In this document: positions 27,457 through 38,522 of the stretch, one piece after another
Layout: each line of letters starts with the position of its first letter
Position numbering within the stretch: the stretch's first letter is position 1
Source of the DNA: Vibrio gallicus
GTDB lineage: Bacteria; Pseudomonadota; Gammaproteobacteria; Enterobacterales; Vibrionaceae
Assembly (NCBI RefSeq): GCF_024346875.1
Contig: NZ_AP024871.1
Location: 1,860,001 to 1,924,000, forward strand
Direction: 5' to 3'
Length of the DNA stretch: 64,000 nt
Notes under the pieces: model-generated
The model's database searches: none
What the model saw: only the letters and a program-made list of their open reading frames with translations
What the model was told of the DNA's origin: nothing
Position numbers and translations under genes: made by a program

Positions 27457-27823
27457 GGGGCTGATCTAGGATTCGACGGGAATTCTGAAGTCTGAGGTGC
27501 ATGCCGTGGGGCGGTTGGCCACGTAAAAAGCCGCAAAAAAATAGTCGCAAACGACGAAAACTACGCACTAGCAGCTTAATAACCTGCTGAGAGCTCTCTT
27601 ACCCTAGCTTCCGCTTTTAAGACGGGGACCAATAAGAGATCAAACCCAAAAGAGCTAGATCGGATTCTCCCGCCTGAGAGATGAAGTTCGAAATATAATT
27701 CAGGATAGTCATTTACTAGCGTGTCGGTTCGCAGGTACTTGGTGAATTTAAAGATCGACTAAGCATGTAGTACCAATGATGAATGATTTTCGGACGCGGG
27801 TTCAACTCCCGCCAGCTCCACCA
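27457..27823 (+). ncRNA. ssrA: tmRNA (10Sa RNA)
   Basis: This 367-nt RNA starts GGGGCTGATCTAGGATTCGACGG and ends with the tRNA-like T-arm GGTTCAACTCCCG and CCA at 27821-27823. The tag reading frame begins with the resume codon GCA at 27547 and encodes ANDENYALAA followed by two TAA stops (27577-27582). It follows the E. coli tmRNA closely in the tRNA-like domain and PK1. Its 3' end is a known integration site for islands such as VPI-1, and an integrase gene follows. Confidence 0.98.
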
Positions 27824-27969: not shown

Positions 27970-27988
27970 AAATTTGGGGGAACATAAA

Positions 27989-29191
27989 ATGCCACTAGCC
28001 ACTTCAAGACTGTCACATACTAAGCTCCTAAAACTGAGACCTACAGAAAAAGAACAACTACTGTCTGATGGCAACGGCCTCTCTCTTAGGGTCCGACCAA
28101 ATGGTTCGAAGATCTTCTATTTCCTCTACTCTCACCCTTTAACAAAAAAACGAATCAAACTTCAAATTGGAAAATTCCCTCACTGTTCACTGAAGCATGC
28201 CCGCAAAGTGGCATTTGACTATAAAGAACTCGTTGAACAGGGTATCGATCCCAAACAACACATTGAGGCTCAAAACGAGCTAGCACTCTTAGAAGAGTCG
28301 AACTTGCTTATTGAAGTCTCCAACGAATGGTTAGAAGTCAAAAAACACAGTGTGACTGCCGACTATGCCGAAGATATATTGCGCTCTCTTGAGCTACACA
28401 TCTTTCCTTATTTAGGGCAAATGCCTATAGGAAAAGTTACAGCGCCTAGAGTCATTAAGATTTTGCGTGTTGTAGAAGCCAAAGGAAACCTAGAAACAGT
28501 CAAGCGACTTTGCCAGCGACTTAATGAAGTTATGAATTTTGCTGTCAATACGGGAAAGATCCACTCTAACCCAATTCAAAAGATCCATGTCGCGTTCAAA
28601 AAACCTAAGCCAGAAAACATGAAATCCCTTCCACCTTCTGAGCTTCCCGAGCTGATGCGCACAATATCTAGAGCCTCACTAAACCGAGTAACTCGTTGCC
28701 TTATAGAATTTCAACTTCACACAATGACAAGGCCAAGCGAAGCTGCTAGCGCCCTATGGGACGAAATAGACTTCGAAAATAAACTTTGGATCATTCCAGC
28801 TCATAAGATGAAAAGAAGACGGGAGCATATCATTCCTTTAAGTGATTGCTGTATTGAGCTATTGGTATTCACTAAAAGCTTGAGAAGAAACAGTCCTTGT
28901 GTTTTCCCTTCCCCTTTGAACAACTTCAAGCCTCTTAATAGCCAAACAGTAAATGCGGCATTAAAGCGTATGGGGTATCAAGGAAAACTCGTGAGCCATG
29001 GCTTTCGTTCAATAGCTTCTACAGCACTCAACGATGAGGGATTTGATTTCGACTTGATTGAATCTGCTCTTGCACATGTAGACCCAAACCAAACTCGTAG
29101 CGCGTACAATCGAGCTCAATACATTGAGCGTCGCCGAGATATGATGAACTGGTGGAGTGCATATATAACTAAAGCATCCAAAAGATTTTAG
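27989..29191 (+). CDS. P4-type tyrosine integrase of the ssrA-linked island
   Basis: The protein has 400 residues from the ATG at 27989 (MPLATSRLSHTKLL), with GGGGGAA upstream; the TTG at 27974 is a weaker start. The N-terminal arm-binding domain (about 20-100: LSDGNGLSLRVRPNGSKIF, IGKFPHCSLKHARK) is followed by a SAM-like core domain and the catalytic domain. Catalytic residues are visible: Arg in TMTRPSEA near 248, His-x-x-Arg in SHGFRSIAS near 337, and Tyr in SAYNRAQY near 372. It probably inserted the region into ssrA, like the VPI-1 integrase. Confidence 0.93.
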   Translation: MPLATSRLSHTKLLKLRPTEKEQLLSDGNGLSLRVRPNGSKIFYFLYSHPLTKKRIKLQIGKFPHCSLKHARKVAFDYKELVEQGIDPKQHIEAQNELALLEESNLLIEVSNEWLEVKKHSVTADYAEDILRSLELHIFPYLGQMPIGKVTAPRVIKILRVVEAKGNLETVKRLCQRLNEVMNFAVNTGKIHSNPIQKIHVAFKKPKPENMKSLPPSELPELMRTISRASLNRVTRCLIEFQLHTMTRPSEAASALWDEIDFENKLWIIPAHKMKRRREHIIPLSDCCIELLVFTKSLRRNSPCVFPSPLNNFKPLNSQTVNAALKRMGYQGKLVSHGFRSIASTALNDEGFDFDLIESALAHVDPNQTRSAYNRAQYIERRRDMMNWWSAYITKASKRF

Positions 29192-29278: not shown

Positions 29279-29309
29279 CCTAAATTAGTAAAAAGCGGAT
29301 TAATTTAGG
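29279..29309. repeat. 9-bp inverted repeat at the end of truncated hsdR
   Basis: CCTAAATTA and TAATTTAGG are perfect arms around a 13-base loop, overlapping the stop codon of the hsdR fragment. It may be a terminator or part of the deletion junction. Confidence 0.45.
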
Positions 29310-30418
29310 TATGGAAAAGTTGGGTAGGCAAAACGCAAGACACGACCCTGTAGTTTCAGTAGATCAATCCGGTCAACAATAAAATAAAACTTAGGGATTA
29401 TGTGTTGCTTTTGATAGTAGTCGGTTAAGTGCCTTACGTTGTAATAAGCCAGAGCCGTTTTTCCACTTCCCTGAGTATGCCAAATAATGCCTTTCTTAAT
29501 GCCTTCGCTTAACTTATTTTCAATCGCTTTGGTCGCAAACAGCTGTGGGTAGCGCATCACGTGTTTTTGTAGACCATCGGTTTCTTTAACGTACGCTAGA
29601 GAATATCTCAGCATGAACGCAAGGCGCTCTGGATTAAAAAGTGATGTGCATATTCTATTGGTTGGCGCATCATGGCCTTTGTTGGTGAGGAATTCAGGGC
29701 TATGTTTAATAACAGTGTAGTTATTGTCTTTTAGAACAAAGTTCTCAGTCTCATCGGCTAAAGGCTTAAGTAGCTTAGTAAGATTAAGAACTTCTTCTTC
29801 TCGGAAGTAGTTGAAGGTAGGCTTTGTATAAGATGAACTCGCATAGAACGCCCCTTGAATAGGCTCGGGGCTACCATCATCGTATTCCATGTTATTAGAA
29901 AACAGCATGAGCTGAGTAATGTTAACGAAGCGTCTAAATTTGGGATTTTGGAAACGTTCATTGATTCGTTTTCGTTCATCTAGAACACCATCTTTATTAT
30001 TTGGCTTTTTCACCTCAATAAAGACTAAAGGCATACCGTTAATGAGCAGAATGATATCTGGACGAAACTTTTCATCACCATTCTTGTATGTAAGCTCTGT
30101 TACTACGTGTAGGCTATTTTTTGAGAAGTCGTCAAAGTCGATGAGTTTTGTACCGGAACGACTCGTCAGTTTTTCATAAAAAGCACGACCTAGATCTTCA
30201 TTATCTAAGCTTAACTTTAAGTCATCCAAGCAACGTTCAACATCTCCATCATCCACTCCAGGATTAATACGCTCAATCGACTTTTTGAAGATATCCGGGA
30301 AAATATTGGTATCAGTGCACCAAGTAGCCTGCTTTAAAGATAAGTACTTATACCCTAAGCGCGTTAGGTGCAGTATGGTTGGTATCTTTACCCGTGTATC
30401 TTCGTTTTGTTTGGTCAT
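29300..30418 (-). pseudogene. hsdR: Type I restriction enzyme R subunit, N-terminal fragment
   Basis: These 372 codons encode the N-terminal nuclease domain of HsdR with the PD-(D/E)xK residues (EKFRPDIILLINGMPLVFIEVKKP near 110-130), then helicase motif I in IWHTQGSGKTALAYYN near 320 and motif Ia-like FYFIVDRIDLL near 345. HsdR proteins are usually 800-1100 residues, so two thirds are missing. The family match stops after DRIDLLK, and the last 18 or so residues look foreign, which points to a deletion joining it to sequence near the integrase. No hsdM or hsdS is present. It lies 37 bp downstream of the DprA-like gene on the same strand. Confidence 0.8.
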
Positions 30419-30455
30419 GAAATACCTAAGCTCTGTGTTGTGATTTTATTTTTAG

Positions 30456-31790
30456 TTATTTTTTGTTCCACTGGTACCGCACTGGTCGTGTTGATTTAGT
30501 CACCAAATTTTGCTCTAGAGCAAGAGCTAGCCAGCTTTTTACCTGTCCTTTATGCAATTCTGATACTTCAACAAGTTCTGTTTCTGATATTGGTTCACTG
30601 GCTAAAGTTTGTAGATACTGAACAAACAATTGATAAAAGCTGTCTTTGGTAACAGCATCAGGCTCTGCCTTTGTCAGTAAAGCGGATTCTTTGTTCTCTA
30701 CTAGCGCTTCATTATTTTTCATTTCTTGCTCAGAACTGCCTTCTACAGCCTTCTCATCGTTATATTCACTCTGAGATATTTCATTTGGCTGTGCGAACAA
30801 ATCTGCTTGTGCTCGGCTAAACAAGTCCGTTTGGTTGTTAACGTTAGAATTGGCACTGTTGACTAATAATGATTGAACATCCAGCTCTACAATGTTCTCG
30901 CTACACCAGCTTGCTCCTGCTGCAACAATTCCAGCATTACCAGCTGCAGCGTCTTGAGTTTGCTTTACCCAAGTAGGAACCCAACCTTTCTTTATGTTCT
31001 GAATAGCCCCTTCCCATGTACCGCCTTTAGTTCCTGAGTGAACCACTACAGAAGTATCCGCAAGACAATAAATGTACTTATTGCGGTCCATTGCATTAAA
31101 ACGGTTAAAGCCAGCTTCAGGATTGAAAGGGGAGACCAACACAACGTTGCCGCTCATTAGACCGCTTCGATATTTGGCCGAAGTAGAGGTTTTCAGTAAA
31201 CTATCAGCGAGTATGCCAATAACAGCACCCCCAGTACTCATAGCACCTAGCATTGAAGTTTCATCGACACCTCTAGCTCCACCAGAAACAGTCCCTAGAC
31301 CAGCATTCGCGGATTTACATCCAACCAGTTCGGCATAAGCAAGATCTGCAGGAGAAGCATTGCGTGAGCCTACGACTGCAATACCACCAGCCTTAAGCAA
31401 CTCTTTGTCTCCACATCCGTACAGCACAGGAGGAGCCTGGTTACCAAGCTTATGGAGTAAACGTTTAGGGTAGCTATCTTTGTCGGCACGAGTAATCACC
31501 CACAAGCCTGAGCGACTCCATTTTTCAAGCGCTAGTGCCATGCTGTGGCCTCGCTTTAAGAGGGCTTCAATTCGCTCTTGAGTCACTTTGTTTTTAGGAT
31601 CTCGCCACTGAGATAGCAACGCTTTCTTGTCGTTATCCAGCAAGTCAGCTGGACTGAGTTGACTATCCCTCAACCACATAGCGAAACGTGCCCATTCCGC
31701 ATTAGTGAGCGGCTTTGCTGCATCTTTATCCTGCTTGCCAAAGTAACTGGTAAGCAGGATTATCGCTTGTGCTGTTGTTGTTAAATTCAT
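30456..31790 (-). CDS. DprA-like SLOG-domain protein, partner of the RecQ-PRTase protein
   Basis: The protein has 444 residues. A helical N-terminus (1-110) is followed by a Rossmann-like DprA/SLOG domain at about 115-300 with VVGSRNASPADLAYAE, VSGGARGVDETSM and a degenerate RFNAMDRNKYIYCLADTSVVV. Next comes a low-complexity Asn/Gln/Glu-rich linker (about 315-375) and a C-terminal winged-helix-like segment. Competence DprA loads RecA on DNA, but this one is an island paralogue: its ATG overlaps the stop of the RecQ-PRTase gene in TAATG, so the two are translationally coupled. In ShosTA defence pairs a DprA-domain protein counteracts a phosphoribosyltransferase toxin; I infer a similar role. 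Confidence 0.75.
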   Translation of the reverse strand: MNLTTTAQAIILLTSYFGKQDKDAAKPLTNAEWARFAMWLRDSQLSPADLLDNDKKALLSQWRDPKNKVTQERIEALLKRGHSMALALEKWSRSGLWVITRADKDSYPKRLLHKLGNQAPPVLYGCGDKELLKAGGIAVVGSRNASPADLAYAELVGCKSANAGLGTVSGGARGVDETSMLGAMSTGGAVIGILADSLLKTSTSAKYRSGLMSGNVVLVSPFNPEAGFNRFNAMDRNKYIYCLADTSVVVHSGTKGGTWEGAIQNIKKGWVPTWVKQTQDAAAGNAGIVAAGASWCSENIVELDVQSLLVNSANSNVNNQTDLFSRAQADLFAQPNEISQSEYNDEKAVEGSSEQEMKNNEALVENKESALLTKAEPDAVTKDSFYQLFVQYLQTLASEPISETELVEVSELHKGQVKSWLALALEQNLVTKSTRPVRYQWNKK

Positions 31791-33904
31791 TAATCATTTA
31801 CCGATGTGGAAGCTAGTGCGACTGGGTATACTTTACCACTGCCAGCTTGCTGAAGCTTCGCAGCGAGAACAGTTAACGTCCAACCCGAATCAACAATGTC
31901 ATCAACTAAGAAGCAAGGCCCTTCTGGTATCGATCCCTCGACTTCAAAAGCACCATCTAGATTACGACATTGATGAAAGCGGTTTTGCTGGAACTTTTGT
32001 TGTTCATTGTCTCTAACTTTTTGTATCACGTCGACAAATTCTAAACCTAACCGTATAGCTAACCTTCTAGCATAATCAGGAACTAGTTCAGGGTGATTAC
32101 GGGACGGGACGCAACATAACCAAGTTGGTCGTTCTTCTAACTCCCAACGTTCAAGTATCATTTCAGCCATTGCATCAACTAACTCATCTCGGAAATGATT
32201 GTCATGTTTATCATCTCTTACCATTTGTCCCCAACCAGCATCCCCCCAACGAGACAGTACTCTGCCCTCTTGAGCTCTTCGCTCAATAGGTAAGTTACCT
32301 CTAAACCCTTCTTCAACAAATGCTCCTGCTGCTACCTGAACATTTGGTTTTATTGTCATTTCTGCATGACGCAAAAAAATCGCTGCATCGTGGGCTAATG
32401 CAGAATCTATTGCACTAGTCACTATTTCTTCTTCGAGACAAACTGCACATCGTCCACAAGGCTGTGCTTCCTCATCATCCAGAGCTTGGCGAAGGTATAG
32501 CATTAAACAAGTATCACTCACTTGGTAATCTAGAACCTCTTGCCATTCTAACTCCCGCTGATGAGTCAGGTGTTCGATTCTATCCTGATCCAAGTTGAAC
32601 CTAACCGGTGTCCGCTTCCATTGTGAACCTTCTTTAATTACAGGTGCAGGGTTCTCTACACTGAGTAACTTCAACACTTTCTCAATTTGCCCAAAACGAA
32701 GGTTGGTTAGCTCTTCCAATTGACGTATTGTTAGACCATCGACACTAGCGAGTGCTTCAAGTATCTCATTGATTTGCTCAAGGCTGGGAAATGCTGAAGA
32801 TCGGAAATACTCATGGATATCAGAATCCTCGACACCGGATAAAAGTACCCCCTTCGCATCTGAAATCCTTCGCCCTGCCCGACCAACTTGTTGATAGTAA
32901 GCTACGATTGAGCCTGGTGATTGGTAGTGGATAACAAAACTAAGGTCAGGTTTGTCATAACCCATTCCTAAAGCGGTAGTAGCTACCAACACGTCAATTT
33001 GATTATTTAATAGCAGGGTTTCTAAATGCTGACGATAAGCATTTGAATCAGGATTACCTGCCGGGGTAATAAAATCTGGGTGAGTAACTTTGCCATGATA
33101 AGCACGAGCATTAATATCATTGCGAACTAGCCATTCTGCGACTTGCTCAGCATCACGAGTAGTTAATGTGTAGACAATCCCTGTACCGTCCAATTGCGGA
33201 ATTACTCTTGCAAGCCAAGCTAATCTGGACGCCTGATCAGGTAATCGAATATTTTGCAATGCCAAACTATCACGACCTAATTGTCCGCGTAGCGTCTGAA
33301 TATCACCCAACTGTGCTTCAATATCTTCAACAACTCGTCTATTTGCAGTCGCTGTAGTTCCAAGAACCGGGGTATTTGCTGGAAGTTGCCTTAGAATACT
33401 AACAATTCGGCGATAATCTGGACGGAAATCATGCCCCCAATCAGAGATACAATGAGCCTCATCTACAACCATTAAGGATATTCTGTCAGCAATTGGACGA
33501 AGAACAGTCTCAACAAAATTGTCATTCGCGAGTCGCTCGGGAGAAATCAATAAACAATCAACTTGATCATTTAAGATGTCACGAGTAACAGCCTCCCAAT
33601 CCTCATTGTTAGATGAGTTCATTGTAACTGCACGTATACCCAACCTCTCAGCAGACTCTATTTGGTTACGCATTAACGCAAGCAAAGGCGATACAATGAT
33701 TGTAGGTCCTTGCTCTCTATCCCTGAAAATTTTTGTGCTAATGAAATAGACCGAACTCTTTCCCCAACCAGTTCGTTGAACAACCAACAACTTTTGATTG
33801 TGGTTAACTAATGCATCAATAGCTTCCCACTGACCTTCTCTAAACTGCGCATCCTCGTCATCAATTGCTGTTTTGAGTAATTGTTCTGCCGCTTGTCTAT
33901 TCAT
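31790..33904 (-). CDS. RecQ-like helicase fused to a ComFC-like phosphoribosyltransferase
   Basis: The protein has 704 residues. The SF2 helicase core shows Walker A VQRTGWGKSS (Lys about 49), DEAH box VVDEAHCISDWGHDFRPDYR near 146-165, TTATANRR, and motif VI QQVGRAGRR near 345. A Cys group CGRCAVC near 480 recalls the RecQ zinc site. The last 150 residues resemble ComFC phosphoribosyltransferases: VPDYARRLAIRLGL, KFQQNRFHQCRNLDGAFEV, and the PRPP loop CFLVDDIVDSGWTLT near 664-678. It is the first gene of a coupled pair with a DprA-like protein. I infer a defence function from the island context; normal RecQ proteins have HRDC instead of a PRTase domain. Confidence 0.82.
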   Translation of the reverse strand: MNRQAAEQLLKTAIDDEDAQFREGQWEAIDALVNHNQKLLVVQRTGWGKSSVYFISTKIFRDREQGPTIIVSPLLALMRNQIESAERLGIRAVTMNSSNNEDWEAVTRDILNDQVDCLLISPERLANDNFVETVLRPIADRISLMVVDEAHCISDWGHDFRPDYRRIVSILRQLPANTPVLGTTATANRRVVEDIEAQLGDIQTLRGQLGRDSLALQNIRLPDQASRLAWLARVIPQLDGTGIVYTLTTRDAEQVAEWLVRNDINARAYHGKVTHPDFITPAGNPDSNAYRQHLETLLLNNQIDVLVATTALGMGYDKPDLSFVIHYQSPGSIVAYYQQVGRAGRRISDAKGVLLSGVEDSDIHEYFRSSAFPSLEQINEILEALASVDGLTIRQLEELTNLRFGQIEKVLKLLSVENPAPVIKEGSQWKRTPVRFNLDQDRIEHLTHQRELEWQEVLDYQVSDTCLMLYLRQALDDEEAQPCGRCAVCLEEEIVTSAIDSALAHDAAIFLRHAEMTIKPNVQVAAGAFVEEGFRGNLPIERRAQEGRVLSRWGDAGWGQMVRDDKHDNHFRDELVDAMAEMILERWELEERPTWLCCVPSRNHPELVPDYARRLAIRLGLEFVDVIQKVRDNEQQKFQQNRFHQCRNLDGAFEVEGSIPEGPCFLVDDIVDSGWTLTVLAAKLQQAGSGKVYPVALASTSVND

Positions 33905-34139
33905 CTAGCCCACCTATGTAATTAGTTTTGTATAAGCACCAAAGAGATTACTTAATAAAATAATTTAAAACAATGAGATAGATTCCATTTAAGGCAACGT
34001 ATTGAATATACTGGTTGGGATAAAAATAGCAGCCATTAGGGTATTTGTATCATTGAAGTATATCTTTAGTGAGAGTAGATAAAATCAGCCTCATTAGTTT
34101 ATTCCTCGAATGAGATCGAGTAGCGCTCAGCTATACCCT

Positions 34140-34334
34140 TTAACTAAGCGCTTTAGCTACATTCGACGCTCGCCACTCTCTTATCAAGCGTTCAATATCG
34201 ACTCGTTGACCAGTACGTGAATCAATACAGGTATCTTGAAAGTTAGCCTGATACTGTTTTGAATCTATCATAGCCTCCACCAGCTCAGCTTCATCAAGTT
34301 CAATCGCTAACATCAATGGTGTGTATCCAAGCAT
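34140..34334 (-). pseudogene. Ankyrin-repeat protein fragment
   Basis: These 64 codons (MLGYTPLMLAIELDEAELVEAM and on) contain one recognisable ankyrin repeat and a short C-terminal tail. The reading frame is cut 12 bp before the end of the Y1 transposase element at about 34347. It is therefore probably the 3' end of a longer ankyrin gene broken by the element. I could not recognise the missing 5' part on the other side of the element. Confidence 0.5.
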
Positions 34335-34346
34335 AGCAGTGTCAGT

Positions 34347-36116
34347 AGATAAAACTGGACACCCATTAATTATAGTAATCAGAACGATACTTAACCGCTA
34401 CGTGGTAAAGCGCAAAATAATGAGTTCAAATCGGCCAAATATTGATTAATGTCGTGAAATTGACATTAAAATACGTAACTTAGCGAATTCAAGGCGTGGC
34501 GTATCGTTAGCTAGGCTAATTAATAAAGATGTGCGGTGAATATGAGTAAATAGAGCGAGTGGTCAGTGCAAACATCGTCGCAGTTGGTTCTTTTTCGCTA
34601 TCCATCGCCTACCTGTATGCTCTGCAAATAACGCCAACTCATCCAGTGTTCCGACCGCTCCTTGATAATCTTTGCCAAAATTACTGGCTAAGCCCATCCA
34701 AGTCTCTGTATCTAAGCCAAGTGAATGTAGTAGTTTCGGGTGCGAAGCGACAATTGCACCGGGTTTGTCATTTCGAATAACACGGCCACTCCAATCCACT
34801 AGCTCAATATAATCGAGTAATGAATACGGAATGCCACGCTGCTCAGACTCACTGGTATCGCCAACAAAACCAAATAATGCCTTCTTGTTACAAGGGGGAT
34901 CATCTTGATGTGACACGCCATGAACACGCTCATAAACGGAGGTGTATTCAGACGCTTCGATGCTGTCGTTGATGCCTGCGCGTATGGGATTCAAATCGAC
35001 ATAAGCCATGCATGTTAATAAGGCTTCTTCATCAAGTAACGCTTGAGACTTAAACCGCCCCTCCCAAAACCGTCCCGAGCAGTCATCTTCTGCGTTGGCT
35101 TTGCGCGCAATAAACTCATTTAAGCTGCGCATGAACCATGAAATATCAATCAGGCGCTCTCGCCAATCATTGATGATACTAAGAGCTGTTTCACTTTCAA
35201 TTCCAACGCAGGTTTGTTTTCTTAGCCAGAGAAAGATAAAACTGGACACCCATTAATTATAGTAATCAGAACGATACTTAACCGCTACGTGGTAAAGCGC
35301 AAAATAATGAGTTCAAATCGGCCAAATATTGATTAATGTCGTGAAATTGACATTAAAATACGTAACTTAGCGAATTCAAGGCGTGGCGTATCGTTAGCTA
35401 GGCTAATTAATAAAGATGTGCGGTGAATATGAGTAAATAGAGCGAGTGGTCAGTGCAAACATCGTCGCAGTTGGTTCTTTTTCGCTATCCATCGCCTACC
35501 TGTATGCTCTGCAAATAACGCCAACTCATCCAGTGTTCCGACCGCTCCTTGATAATCTTTGCCAAAATTACTGGCTAAGCCCATCCAAGTCTCTGTATCT
35601 AAGCCAAGTGAATGTAGTAGTTTCGGGTGCGAAGCGACAATTGCACCGGGTTTGTCATTTCGAATAACACGGCCACTCCAATCCACTAGCTCAATATAAT
35701 CGAGTAATGAATACGGAATGCCACGCTGCTCAGACTCACTGGTATCGCCAACAAAACCAAATAATGCCTTCTTGTTACAAGGGGGGTCATCTTGATGTGA
35801 CACGCCATGAACACGCTCATAAACGGAGGTGTATTCAGACGCTTCGATGCTGTCGTTGATGCCTGCGCGTATGGGATTCAAATCGACATAAGCCATGCAT
35901 GTTAATAAGGCTTCTTCATCAAGTAACGCTTGAGACTTAAACCGCCCCTCCCAAAACCGTCCCGAGCAGTCATCTTCTGCGTTGGCTTTGCGCGCAATAA
36001 ACTCATTTAAGCTGCGCATGAACCATGAAATATCAATCAGGCGCTCTCGCCAATCATTGATGATACTAAGAGCTGTTTCACTTTCAATTCCAACGCAGGT
36101 TTGTTTTCTTAGCCAG
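34347..36116. repeat. 887-bp tandem duplication inside the Y1 transposase element
   Basis: Positions 34347-35229 recur at 35234-36116 with an offset of 887 bp and four extra bases (35230-35233) between them. The copies appear identical apart from an A/G difference at 34899/35786, which does not change the protein. The near-identity shows a recent event. It copied the 3' two thirds of the transposase gene and the downstream element end. Confidence 0.9.
34563..35229 (-). pseudogene. 5'-truncated copy of the Y1 transposase gene
   Basis: This copy holds the C-terminal part of the intact transposase (from WLRKQTCVGIE onward). It lacks the start and the HUH motif because it arose from the 887-bp tandem duplication. 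At the junction the frame runs into unrelated codons, so it should not make a functional enzyme. Confidence 0.85.
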
Positions 36117-36436
36117 CGCTGAACTAATACGGGAAGTGAGTATAACTGCCCCCATCTCCAGCAGACCTCTTCATCACTAAGCTGTTGATTTAATTGCTCG
36201 TCGACATGCAGCACAATGTGGTAATGATTTGACATCACCGCATAGGCGCAGATATCCATACTAAATACCGTAGACAAATAATGCATCCGCTCAACCACCC
36301 ATGCTCGACGGTGCTCAAATGATTGCCCTGTATATTTATCGTCGCCACACAGATAGGCTCTGCGAACACAACGCGAGATACAATGATAATAAGGAGTATC
36401 AGAAAGAGAAACTTGAGACTGTCGAGATTGTGTCAT
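35450..36436 (-). CDS. Y1_Tnp (REP-associated/IS200-like) transposase
   Basis: This 328-residue single-strand DNA transposase has the HUH-type motif AVMSNHYHIVLHV near 75 and CISRCVRRAYLCGDD near 25. It also has the RAYT-type stretches GRFWEGRFKSQALLDEEALLTCMAYVDLNPIRAG near 150-185. I start at 36436 (MTQSRQSQVSLSD), which has GGAGGT at ideal spacing; the ATG-like position at 36457 is upstream of that RBS. Long RAYT relatives of this size are common in Vibrio and Shewanella and may act on REP-like sequences. Confidence 0.85.
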   Translation of the reverse strand: MTQSRQSQVSLSDTPYYHCISRCVRRAYLCGDDKYTGQSFEHRRAWVVERMHYLSTVFSMDICAYAVMSNHYHIVLHVDEQLNQQLSDEEVCWRWGQLYSLPVLVQRWLRKQTCVGIESETALSIINDWRERLIDISWFMRSLNEFIARKANAEDDCSGRFWEGRFKSQALLDEEALLTCMAYVDLNPIRAGINDSIEASEYTSVYERVHGVSHQDDPPCNKKALFGFVGDTSESEQRGIPYSLLDYIELVDWSGRVIRNDKPGAIVASHPKLLHSLGLDTETWMGLASNFGKDYQGAVGTLDELALFAEHTGRRWIAKKNQLRRCLH

Positions 36437-36633
36437 AACAACTACCTCCAGATGCACTGTGCATCAATTAAAGCTAGCTGTAGAGTCGAGAGGCGTCAAT
36501 ATTTATGGGTGTCCCGCAATTTCTATCCCTTGATTTACTTACTCAAGCTCATCCATGCTAAATATCATCCTGTATATAGATAAGTCAAAGCCAAGGGCTT
36601 TGATTGTTCTATCTAAACATAATGTATATATCC

Positions 36634-36887
36634 TCCCTTCTACAAGGGATACGCACATATCACCCTCTACAAGGGATAGGTACACTATCATCCCCTACAA
36701 GGGATATGTAAACTATCATCCCCTATAAGGGATAGGTAAACCATCATCCCCTACAAGGGATAGGCACACTATTACCCCCTACAAGGGATAGGTACACTAT
36801 CATCCCCTATAAGGGATAGGTACACTATCATCCCCTGTAAGGGATAGGTACAATTCAAAAACAAATTAGTATCCCCTACAAGGGATA
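36634..36887. promoter_or_regulatory. Array of nine HipB-operator-like palindromes upstream of hipBA
   Basis: Nine 18-bp sites of form (T/C)A(T/C)CC-N8-GGATA start at 36634, 36661, 36689, 36717, 36745, 36773, 36801, 36829 and 36870. Seven of the intervals are 28 bp, one is 27 and the last is 41. The ninth site is TATCC-CCTACAAG-GGATA, an exact match to the E. coli HipB operator TATCC-N8-GGATA, and lies just before a TATACT -10 box at 36892-36897. The first site is degenerate on its left half. E. coli has four such operators, so this array is about twice as long. Confidence 0.85.
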
Positions 36888-36954: not shown

Positions 36955-37203
36955 ATGATATATAGCCCAAAGCAACTTGCTGATAGCATGCTTCTTATAA
37001 GGCAAAAGAACAACTGGAGTCAGACTGAGCTAGCCAAAAGAGTTGGTATAAAGCAATCAACAATATCCAACTTCGAGAACAATCCAAATCTCACTACACT
37101 CTCAACTTTTTTTAAACTGCTCCAAGCCATGAACTTAACACTGAAGTTAGAAGAAAAGAGCCTAGTACAACATTGTAACGATAATGATGAGGAAGACTGG
37201 TAA
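36955..37203 (+). CDS. hipB: HipB-like antitoxin and autorepressor
   Basis: This 82-residue HTH_3 protein is very close to E. coli HipB: IYSPKQLADSM, the helix-turn-helix WSQTELAKRVGIKQSTISNFENNP (about 20-44), and TTLSTFFKLLQAMNLTL. The C-terminus ends in an acidic tail with Trp (DEEDW), as in E. coli where the terminal Trp contacts HipA. AGGAAG lies 7 bp before the ATG. It neutralises HipA and should repress the operon by binding the operator array upstream. Its stop overlaps the hipA start (TAATG). Confidence 0.93.
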   Translation: MIYSPKQLADSMLLIRQKNNWSQTELAKRVGIKQSTISNFENNPNLTTLSTFFKLLQAMNLTLKLEEKSLVQHCNDNDEEDW

Positions 37204-38522
37204 TGCAAGAACTACTAGCTTATATGAATGGAGAGCTTGTCGGCAGATTACAAAAACAATCGAATGGTGCTCATTCTTTCCAGTATGATCCAGACTGGAT
37301 AAATAACAGAAAAGCCCGCCCCATATCTTTATCATTAAAGTTGCAAATAGCACCAATAAAATCAGATGCAGTTATTAATTACTTTGATAACCTTTTGCCT
37401 GATGCTCCAAAAGTTAGAGAAAGAATAGTTGCTAGATATAAAGCCTCTTCTAAGCAACCATTTGACCTTTTAAAAGAGGTAGGTAAAGACAGTGTTGGTG
37501 CAATAGCCTTATTACCTCCTGAGCAACCTTATAATGAAGATAAGATCAATTATGAGACGCTAAATGAAGAAAAGCTTGAAAATGTTCTTCTCGCATACAA
37601 ATCAGATATACCCTTAGGGATGCTTGAAGAAGAGGAAGACTTCAGAATATCAGTGGCGGGCGCACAAGAAAAAACGGCTCTTCTTCGCTCCAACGACCAA
37701 TGGTGCATACCGAAAGGCAATACACCAACTACTCATATTATCAAGTTACCTATTGGAGAAATACAGCAAGCTCATGCAACGTTAGATCTAACAGATAGCG
37801 TTGAAAATGAATACCTTTGTATTGAGTTGGCTAGAGAGCTTGGTTTCGAAGTGCCTAATGTTGAGATTATCCATACTGAAAAAGTCAAAGCACTAGCAGT
37901 AGAACGTTTCGATAGACGCTGGAACAAAGATAAAACAAATTTATTGCGATTACCTCAAGAGGATATTTGCCAAGTTTTCGGAAAACCTTCATCTATAAAG
38001 TATGAGTCTCAAGGTGGTCCTGGTATCGCTGAAATAATGGAGCTTTTGATGGGGTCGAGTAACGCACTAGAAGACCAATACAACTTCATGAAGTTCCAAG
38101 TTTTCCAGTGGGCAATTGGCGCTACAGATGGACATGCTAAGAACTTTTCCATTTTTATTGAAAAAGGAGGAAGCTATAAGCTTACCCCTTTTTATGACAT
38201 TCTATCTGCTTATGTTGTCCTTGGAGGAAAAGGATTAAATATAAGAAAGCTAAAGTTAGCTATGGGGATAAAAGCAACTCGTGGTAAGAAGTATGAAATA
38301 AATAAAATCTACGCTCGTCACTTCTTAGATACAGCCACATCTGTAGGATTTAGCAAAGAAAAGATGCAACAAATCTTAGACGATATCCAAGTTGAGCTTC
38401 CTCAAGCAATTGAACGACTAAAAGCTAGACTTCCAGATAGCTTTCCTGAAGAAGTTTCGACAGCTATATTCGATAATTCTCTAAAAATGGTAAAAAAACT
38501 AGGTATAAATTCAGGCCAATAA
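37203..38522 (+). CDS. hipA: HipA Ser/Thr kinase toxin
   Basis: This 439-residue protein is collinear with E. coli HipA, which phosphorylates glutamyl-tRNA synthetase and induces persistence. Key residues fall at the E. coli positions: Gly22 in NGAHSF and Asp291 in ALEDQY (both wild-type, unlike the hipA7 persistence allele), the autophosphorylated Ser150 in RISVAGAQEK, and catalytic Asp309 in GATDGHAKNFS. The protein is full length, so an active toxin is likely. It is translationally coupled to hipB, and a weak hairpin follows. Confidence 0.95.
   Translation: MQELLAYMNGELVGRLQKQSNGAHSFQYDPDWINNRKARPISLSLKLQIAPIKSDAVINYFDNLLPDAPKVRERIVARYKASSKQPFDLLKEVGKDSVGAIALLPPEQPYNEDKINYETLNEEKLENVLLAYKSDIPLGMLEEEEDFRISVAGAQEKTALLRSNDQWCIPKGNTPTTHIIKLPIGEIQQAHATLDLTDSVENEYLCIELARELGFEVPNVEIIHTEKVKALAVERFDRRWNKDKTNLLRLPQEDICQVFGKPSSIKYESQGGPGIAEIMELLMGSSNALEDQYNFMKFQVFQWAIGATDGHAKNFSIFIEKGGSYKLTPFYDILSAYVVLGGKGLNIRKLKLAMGIKATRGKKYEINKIYARHFLDTATSVGFSKEKMQQILDDIQVELPQAIERLKARLPDSFPEEVSTAIFDNSLKMVKKLGINSGQ

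Follow-up and report, generated by a model that had tools for sequence, protein, structure and literature searches.

A 64,000-nt stretch of the Vibrio gallicus genome (NZ_AP024871.1, 1,860,001–1,924,000; hereafter the window, in whose coordinates all positions are given) carries an overlapping gene pair that, judged by profile scores, is a member of the published family PsyrTA, alias RqlHI, and ordinary in kind. The first gene, psyrT, encodes a RecQ-type superfamily 2 (SF2) helicase with a C-terminal phosphoribosyltransferase (PRTase) domain, and the second, psyrA, a DprA/SLOG-domain protein. The pair is very probably a toxin–antitoxin system, in which a PRTase toxin is held by PsyrA and released on disturbance. 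Comparison with relatives points to two further features: exchange of a central block of PsyrT, and repeated placement of the pair within restriction–modification (RM) or bacteriophage exclusion (BREX) operons.

Identity and architecture of the gene pair

Both proteins are matched almost end to end by PADLOC models, PsyrT by PDLC03928 (1022 bits, residues 2–704 of 704) and PsyrA by PDLC03927 (526 bits, residues 1–442 of 444). Likeness to the PsyrTA pair of Pseudomonas syringae (Sberro 2013, as described in PMC8790059 and PMC9122126) was assessed through these models only, which the window pair fits at full length. A sequence-only reading of the region had proposed an enlarged ShosTA-like module. 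The two systems are indeed alike in joining a DprA-fold antitoxin to a PRTase effector, and the PsyrA profile matches the solved ShosA structure 9vzo (E=6e-15). However, ShosA models give only 79 and 28 bits against the window PsyrA, versus 526 for the PsyrA model, and ShosT is absent among the 25 listed of 43 PADLOC matches for the helicase–PRTase protein. The PRTase of ShosTA is, moreover, described as a DprA-associated protein, with a helicase unmentioned in the available text (PMC9122126). Given these scores and the presence of a helicase, an enlarged ShosTA was ruled out; on the PADLOC scores and the published biology of RqlHI, the pair is read as a new member of that family. A housekeeping RecQ identity is not supported either, as PsyrT scores 266 bits against the RecQ equivalog TIGR01389, under its cut-off of 640.2. 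The broader RecQ subfamily TIGR00614 is matched above cut-off (233.5 versus 219.8 bits), and Pfam DEAD and Helicase_C in PsyrT, and DNA_processg_A in PsyrA, well over theirs.

In E. coli, rqlH and rqlI form one operon. Toxicity of RqlH stems from its PRTase domain, and the protein is genotoxic in the absence of RqlI, which physically interacts with it, restrains it and rescues the cell (Russell and Mulvey 2015, PMC4670107). The window pair resembles RqlHI of extraintestinal E. coli in its RecQ-like helicase with C-terminal PRTase and in its DprA-like partner downstream in an operon. The suggestion that this partner is antitoxin-like holds. Comparisons with RqlH of strain F11 were made through the homologue of E. 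coli Nissle 1917 as a stand-in, which has Lys49 and Asp148 at the window numbers and DIVD in its loop for phosphoribosyl pyrophosphate (PRPP). The two differ in site: the Nissle pair lies between gntU and yhgN, whereas that of the window lies near ssrA and an integrase, beside a truncated hsdR.

The layout of the two genes, both on the minus strand, is confirmed at the coordinates in Table 1. The stop of psyrT and the start of psyrA share one base in TAATG, and the 704-residue fusion holds the Walker A, DEAH (residue 148), GRAGR (residue 341) and VDDIVDSG motifs, all of which had been described from the letters alone. This architecture is not a product of chance, as it is common to full-length relatives, with psyrA recurrently 3′ of psyrT. 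Two DprA motifs are present in PsyrA, GSRNAS (residue 141) and SGGARGVD (residue 169).

Conservation was assessed in an alignment of 243 PsyrT rows (235 distinct), a non-random set of fetched loci and the best 120 matches from each of two listings. Lys49 is kept in 241 rows, the remaining 2 being gapped there, and D668, D669, S673 and T676 are invariant in all 243. The PRPP loop of the window, VDDIVDSG, is intact rather than degenerate, and the AlphaFold model of the protein has a mean predicted local distance difference test (pLDDT) score of 88.9. The label 'ComFC-like', given to this domain earlier, fares less well: the assignment as a PRTase stands, but likeness to ComFC is weak, with a ComF-type GntX model giving 20.5 bits (cut-off 304) and PRPP synthetases ranking first (E=0.0056) in a sequence search of solved structures.

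In one Vibrionaceae type of PsyrT (L032, L033, L036 and L044; L numbers denote loci), the PRPP loop reads DDVVRSK where the window has DDIVDSG, with D668, D669 and S673 kept. This type accounts for 7/243 aligned rows, L011–L013 repeating three of the four loci. Inactivity of these alleles is not claimed: residue 663 of RqlH, whose replacement abolished toxicity, would correspond to the invariant D669 of the window, the latter of the two adjacent Asp residues, assuming that F11 and Nissle numbering are the same.

Table 1. Features of the window: position, strand and basis of each assignment
Feature	Position	Strand	Description and basis
psyrT (rqlH)	31790..33904	-	704 aa; RecQ-type SF2 helicase + C-terminal PRTase; putative toxin; open reading frame (ORF) + PADLOC PDLC03928
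Walker A TGWGKS, PsyrT residues 45-50 (Lys49)	33755..33772	-	Motif search
Exchangeable central block, about PsyrT residues 245-550	32255..33172	-	Block identities, DNA profile, trees, secondary structure
Cysteines C466, C483, C486, C489, putative zinc-type module	32438..32509	-	C in 240/243 rows at each position
PRTase domain, about PsyrT residues 555-704	31793..32242	-	Pfam, structure-database match, AlphaFold model
PRPP loop VDDIVDSG, PsyrT residues 667-674	31883..31906	-	Motif search
psyrA (rqlI)	30456..31790	-	444 aa; DprA/SLOG-domain protein; putative antitoxin; ORF + PADLOC PDLC03927
DprA-like Rossmann core, PsyrA residues 92-295	30906..31517	-	Pfam DNA_processg_A, 121.7 bits
Truncated hsdR, downstream of psyrA	29300..30418	-	Pfam; 372-aa frame
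Block common to window and V. splendidus 12E03	29358..34344	-	97.9% DNA identity, 4,987 bases
ssrA (transfer-messenger RNA) gene	27457..27823	+	RNA gene
Tyrosine integrase, just downstream of ssrA	27974..29191	+	Pfam
hipBA, on psyrT side, opposite truncated hsdR	36955-38522		Pfam

Distribution and coupling of the two genes

The pair is accessory and patchy within the genus: the genus sample of 148 genomes has a match at E≤1e-100 in 8, and the class sample of 369 genomes a match at E≤1e-120 in 11 (own genome counted in both). Placement in a core recombination locus of all vibrios is excluded by the former figure. From the searches, 70 loci were assembled, comprising 51 of the 80 loci of one search (L016–L066) and 19 from others, same-genome repeats being excluded; the other 29 of the 80 are helicase-only matches of 30–37% identity. 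Coupling was counted in the 54 loci where psyrT is complete and the sequence runs on for 1.5 kb or more beyond its 3′ end. An ORF search finds psyrA on the same strand directly 3′ of psyrT in 50 of these, and a tblastn-based step places it 11 bases after the psyrT stop in L065, making 51/54 the better count.

In a phage collection (tblastn, E≤1e-30), 21 records are matched, all at under 80% query coverage; the 20 listed of these 21 cover 46–52% of it, in the helicase part. A DNA search for distant matches in E. coli hits 1,655/5,426 genomes, with only 1 place covering 80% of the query, and the former figure is not used as a prevalence.

Exchange of the central block of PsyrT

Exchange of the central block is well supported by the comparison of natural alleles. 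The block is predicted to contain the second RecA lobe (residues 301–350 of which are conserved), a helical and winged-helix-like part, the cysteines, and the linker up to the PRTase. Of the natural pairs, P0078 and P0135 show it best, with 99.6% identity over residues 1–240, 48% over 350–550 and 98% over 560–704; since rate differences alone are unlikely to yield such a pattern, recombination is the favoured reading. A separate pair from Methylobacter (L023 and L038) gives 94, 46 and 87%. In the cleanest case, which lies outside Vibrio, PsyrT of an E. coli plasmid (L097) and of Mangrovibacter (L020) are, in blocks of 50 residues, 100, 94, 90, 100 and 86% identical, then 50, 86, 58, 50, 44 and 48%, and finally 94, 100 and 94%, their PsyrA proteins being 90–96% alike in the first six blocks. 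At the DNA level, the flanks within psyrT are 79–91% identical and the centre 52–59%, save for one block of 73%.

Amongst vibrios, comparison of the window with V. anguillarum (L033) gives 86, 88, 82, 84 and 68% for the first five PsyrT blocks, followed by 46, 76, 48, 46, 44 and 36%, and then 74, 64 and 70%, so that here the difference extends to the C-terminal end, PRTase included. The corresponding PsyrA blocks are 98, 94, 90, 84, 92 and 90%, with 70, 64 and 79% in a variable last third. One antitoxin core in Vibrio (84–98% over the first 300 residues between these two) thus pairs with two toxin types.

One cluster of rows alike in both N-lobe and PRTase splits by centre into three types, of 147, 36 and 1 rows. 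Pairs odd in the centre number 2,639, and as 2,636 of these stem from one pair of centre types, few exchange events are suggested rather than many. Within the alignment, no pairs have a centre at least 85% alike and an end at or below 65%, and none are alike in N-lobe and centre with a PRTase at or below 70%. There are, however, 18 pairs amongst 29,403 with centre and PRTase at least 85% alike and an N-lobe of only 74–80%, all of them involving L017, its copy L009 or P0007. The centre is accordingly the main but, on these alignments, not the only exchanged part, and the N-lobe is not immune.

Tree comparisons agree with this picture in part. In the antitoxin core tree, seven Vibrionaceae rows form one clade with support of 100. 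For PsyrT residues 240–480, approximately unbiased (AU) tests reject both a single vibrio clade (p 0.0007) and the grouping of 11 further taxa, the E. coli plasmid among them, in one clade (p 0.001), in quick trees and for clades chosen after the block identities were known. Two results from the same trees weigh against a neat exchange: for residues 481–704 neither clade is rejected (p 0.53 and 0.66, respectively), and for residues 1–230 the vibrio clade appears in the best tree with support of only 58.

Two local patterns of variation were also observed. Residues 101–150 of L017 PsyrT are only 44% identical to the window, against 84% and 76% on the two sides, which gives the impression of a further, smaller exchange within the first helicase lobe. 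In PsyrA, residues 300–444 (window 30456–30893), the C-terminal third, vary independently of the core among vibrios; that of L017 is 94–98% alike to that of L033, yet both are 64–81% to the window.

Placement in restriction and BREX operons

The order hsdM–hsdS–psyrT–psyrA–hsdR, all on one strand, occurs in 8 of the 54 complete loci (L018, L021, L028, L031, L056, L097, L098 and L108). Pfam confirms hsdS in L018, L031 and L098, and hsdR in L098; hsdM is cut by a contig end in L031, and the hsdR frame of L028 is only 582 aa. The record annotation of L097, a conjugative IncF plasmid of E. coli, gives the identical nested order. Elsewhere the pair precedes hsdR–hsdM–hsdS (L016, V. splendidus 12E03) or hsdM (L036 and L058), is flanked by a helicase/DUF4391 pair on one side and a methylase on the other (L034), or, on an Acinetobacter plasmid (L116), lies within a BREX operon ordered brxC–pglX–psyrT–psyrA–DUF262–pglZ. 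As the loci were sampled by similarity, and 7 of these 54 (L096, L097 and L114–L118) are hand-picked annotated records, the fraction does not estimate a population frequency. RM neighbours, sought with 13 seed proteins, 40 Pfam-scanned proteins and record annotation, may be undercounted.

PrrC (EcoprrI) and DarTG2 of enteropathogenic E. coli (EPEC) are likewise toxic effectors within type I RM loci, the latter in the same hsdS–hsdR gap, and both are presumably unrelated to the PsyrTA proteins. This gap is an established landing site, where DarTG2 is found in EPEC and a different gene pair is known from four genomes (PMC12255303). The textbook RM guard is PrrC, which lies within a type IC locus and fires upon inhibition of that locus (PMC12707154). 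Because both cases are already described, the embedding of PsyrTA is treated as a new instance of a known pattern. Paper searches and term look-ups in PMC10121019, PMC12839542, PMC12255303 and PMC12707154 gave no description of PsyrTA within RM operons, and the arrangement is not claimed as unreported.

Such placement raises the prospect that PsyrTA, like PrrC, monitors an RM or BREX system and is triggered by phage inhibition of that system. The nested and adjacent loci, together with the PrrC precedent of inhibition-triggered release (PMC12707154), favour this explanation, which is nonetheless unlikely. The majority of the 54 loci have no RM neighbour detected by seeds or scans, the Nissle 1917 pair stands alone at its site, and that of the window is retained beside a truncated hsdR, so that the pair does not require an adjacent RM system. 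Furthermore, as the hsdS–hsdR gap also hosts the unrelated DarTG2 (PMC12255303), embedding may reflect the landing site only.

Mechanism and competing explanations

Under the favoured reading of a restrained PRTase toxin, PsyrT would be a RecQ-like helicase whose toxicity requires its C-terminal PRTase, and PsyrA, a DprA-fold protein translated from the overlapping start, would bind it, such that PsyrA and the helicase together hold the PRTase inactive. These steps, from toxicity up to restraint, are published for E. coli RqlHI and are carried to the window pair by analogy, whilst membership, intact motifs, gene coupling, RM/BREX embedding and central exchange were computed for the window and its relatives. 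Disturbance of the complex, such as phage replication or DNA damage would cause at a structure on which the helicase rides, might then release the PRTase. The freed domain could use PRPP, or act on a nucleotide or DNA substrate, and damage DNA metabolism, leading to SOS induction and a growth stop, and conceivably to an abortive anti-phage role.

Several points weigh against this account. Pfam Pribosyltran matches PsyrT residues 612–688 with 24.1 bits, just under its cut-off of 26.3. In 3 of the 54 complete loci psyrA was not found, by either method in L060 and L063 and by the ORF search in L117; in Gram-positive bacteria RqlH is known without RqlI (PMC4670107). In E. coli NILS69, deletion of PsyrTA gave no sign of lost phage resistance, and the NILS69 pair in K-12 gave no detectable protection against the phages tested and slowed growth (PMC12409345). 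An anti-phage function of the window pair is putative.

A role without killing, in which helicase, ComF-type PRTase and DprA protein process incoming or damaged DNA as a housekeeping-like repair or uptake module, is improbable. DprA and ComF are competence families, and the authors of the RqlHI study consider a connection with transformation and put forward a model of DNA modification (PMC4670107). Set against this are the patchy distribution (8/148 congeners), two further strong RecQ-like matches in the genome (C1:1453588, a 728-aa frame, and C1:2452669, a 607-aa frame) and the genotoxicity of RqlH without RqlI (PMC4670107). Least credible is a ShosTA variant with an added helicase, its DprA partner controlling the PRTase, for although the DprA-plus-PRTase logic is common to both (PMC9122126) and PsyrA does match ShosA models and 9vzo, the PsyrA model far outscores those of ShosA, and the toxin, at 1022 bits to PsyrT, has no ShosT model among the 25 listed of its 43 matches.

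Genomic neighbourhood

The block shared with V. splendidus 12E03 heads psyrT–psyrA–hsdR–hsdM–hsdS in that strain, and residues 1–355 of the window HsdR are 94% identical to its full-length counterpart (1067 aa). On account of these two matches, the window pair and broken hsdR look like the remnant of a five-gene operon, of which the pair would have outlived the RM part. The broken hsdR, hipBA, integrase and ssrA of a supposed ssrA-linked island are all present. A search of the window and the genome for an intact ssrA attachment-site pair finds no further copy of the ssrA 3′ end, so that the boundaries of such an island are not shown.

Tandem 28-base units, each with a near-palindrome (CCCCTA..AAGGGATAGG), occupy 36631–36882, between hipBA and a gene resembling a transposase of the repetitive extragenic palindromic (REP) type. 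The latter, at 35450–36457, is like REP-associated tyrosine transposases (42 bits, under the NCBIfam cut-off of 80). A shorter second copy follows at 34563–35249, with direct repeats 887 bases apart (region 34347–36457), which may represent a recent tandem duplication or an assembly effect. In V. splendidus, contig C174 (genome G516) has two more places weakly like HsdR (30–34% identity), which suggests a defence-rich region.

Significance for the PsyrTA family

The earlier interpretation of this locus is partly supported: what it describes is there, but the novelty it proposes does not hold. For a published family, the pair supplies one more member, from a vibrio, and the added interest lies in domain exchange and embedding. 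The exchanged block may be the part of PsyrT that meets DNA or phage factors, with a role in sensing. A tentative possibility is that PsyrTA is a modular immune toxin, carried as cargo of type I RM and BREX operons, with its centre a specificity cassette recombined under phage pressure and its ATP lobe, PRTase and, usually, antitoxin near-fixed. If so, exchange of the block would alter what PsyrT senses, or allow escape from a phage inhibitor. The recurrent placement in the hsdS–hsdR gap and in BREX raises the question of whether PsyrTA guards restriction, and the natural alleles P0078 and P0135 provide a ready-made comparison, without engineering, for what this little-understood system senses.

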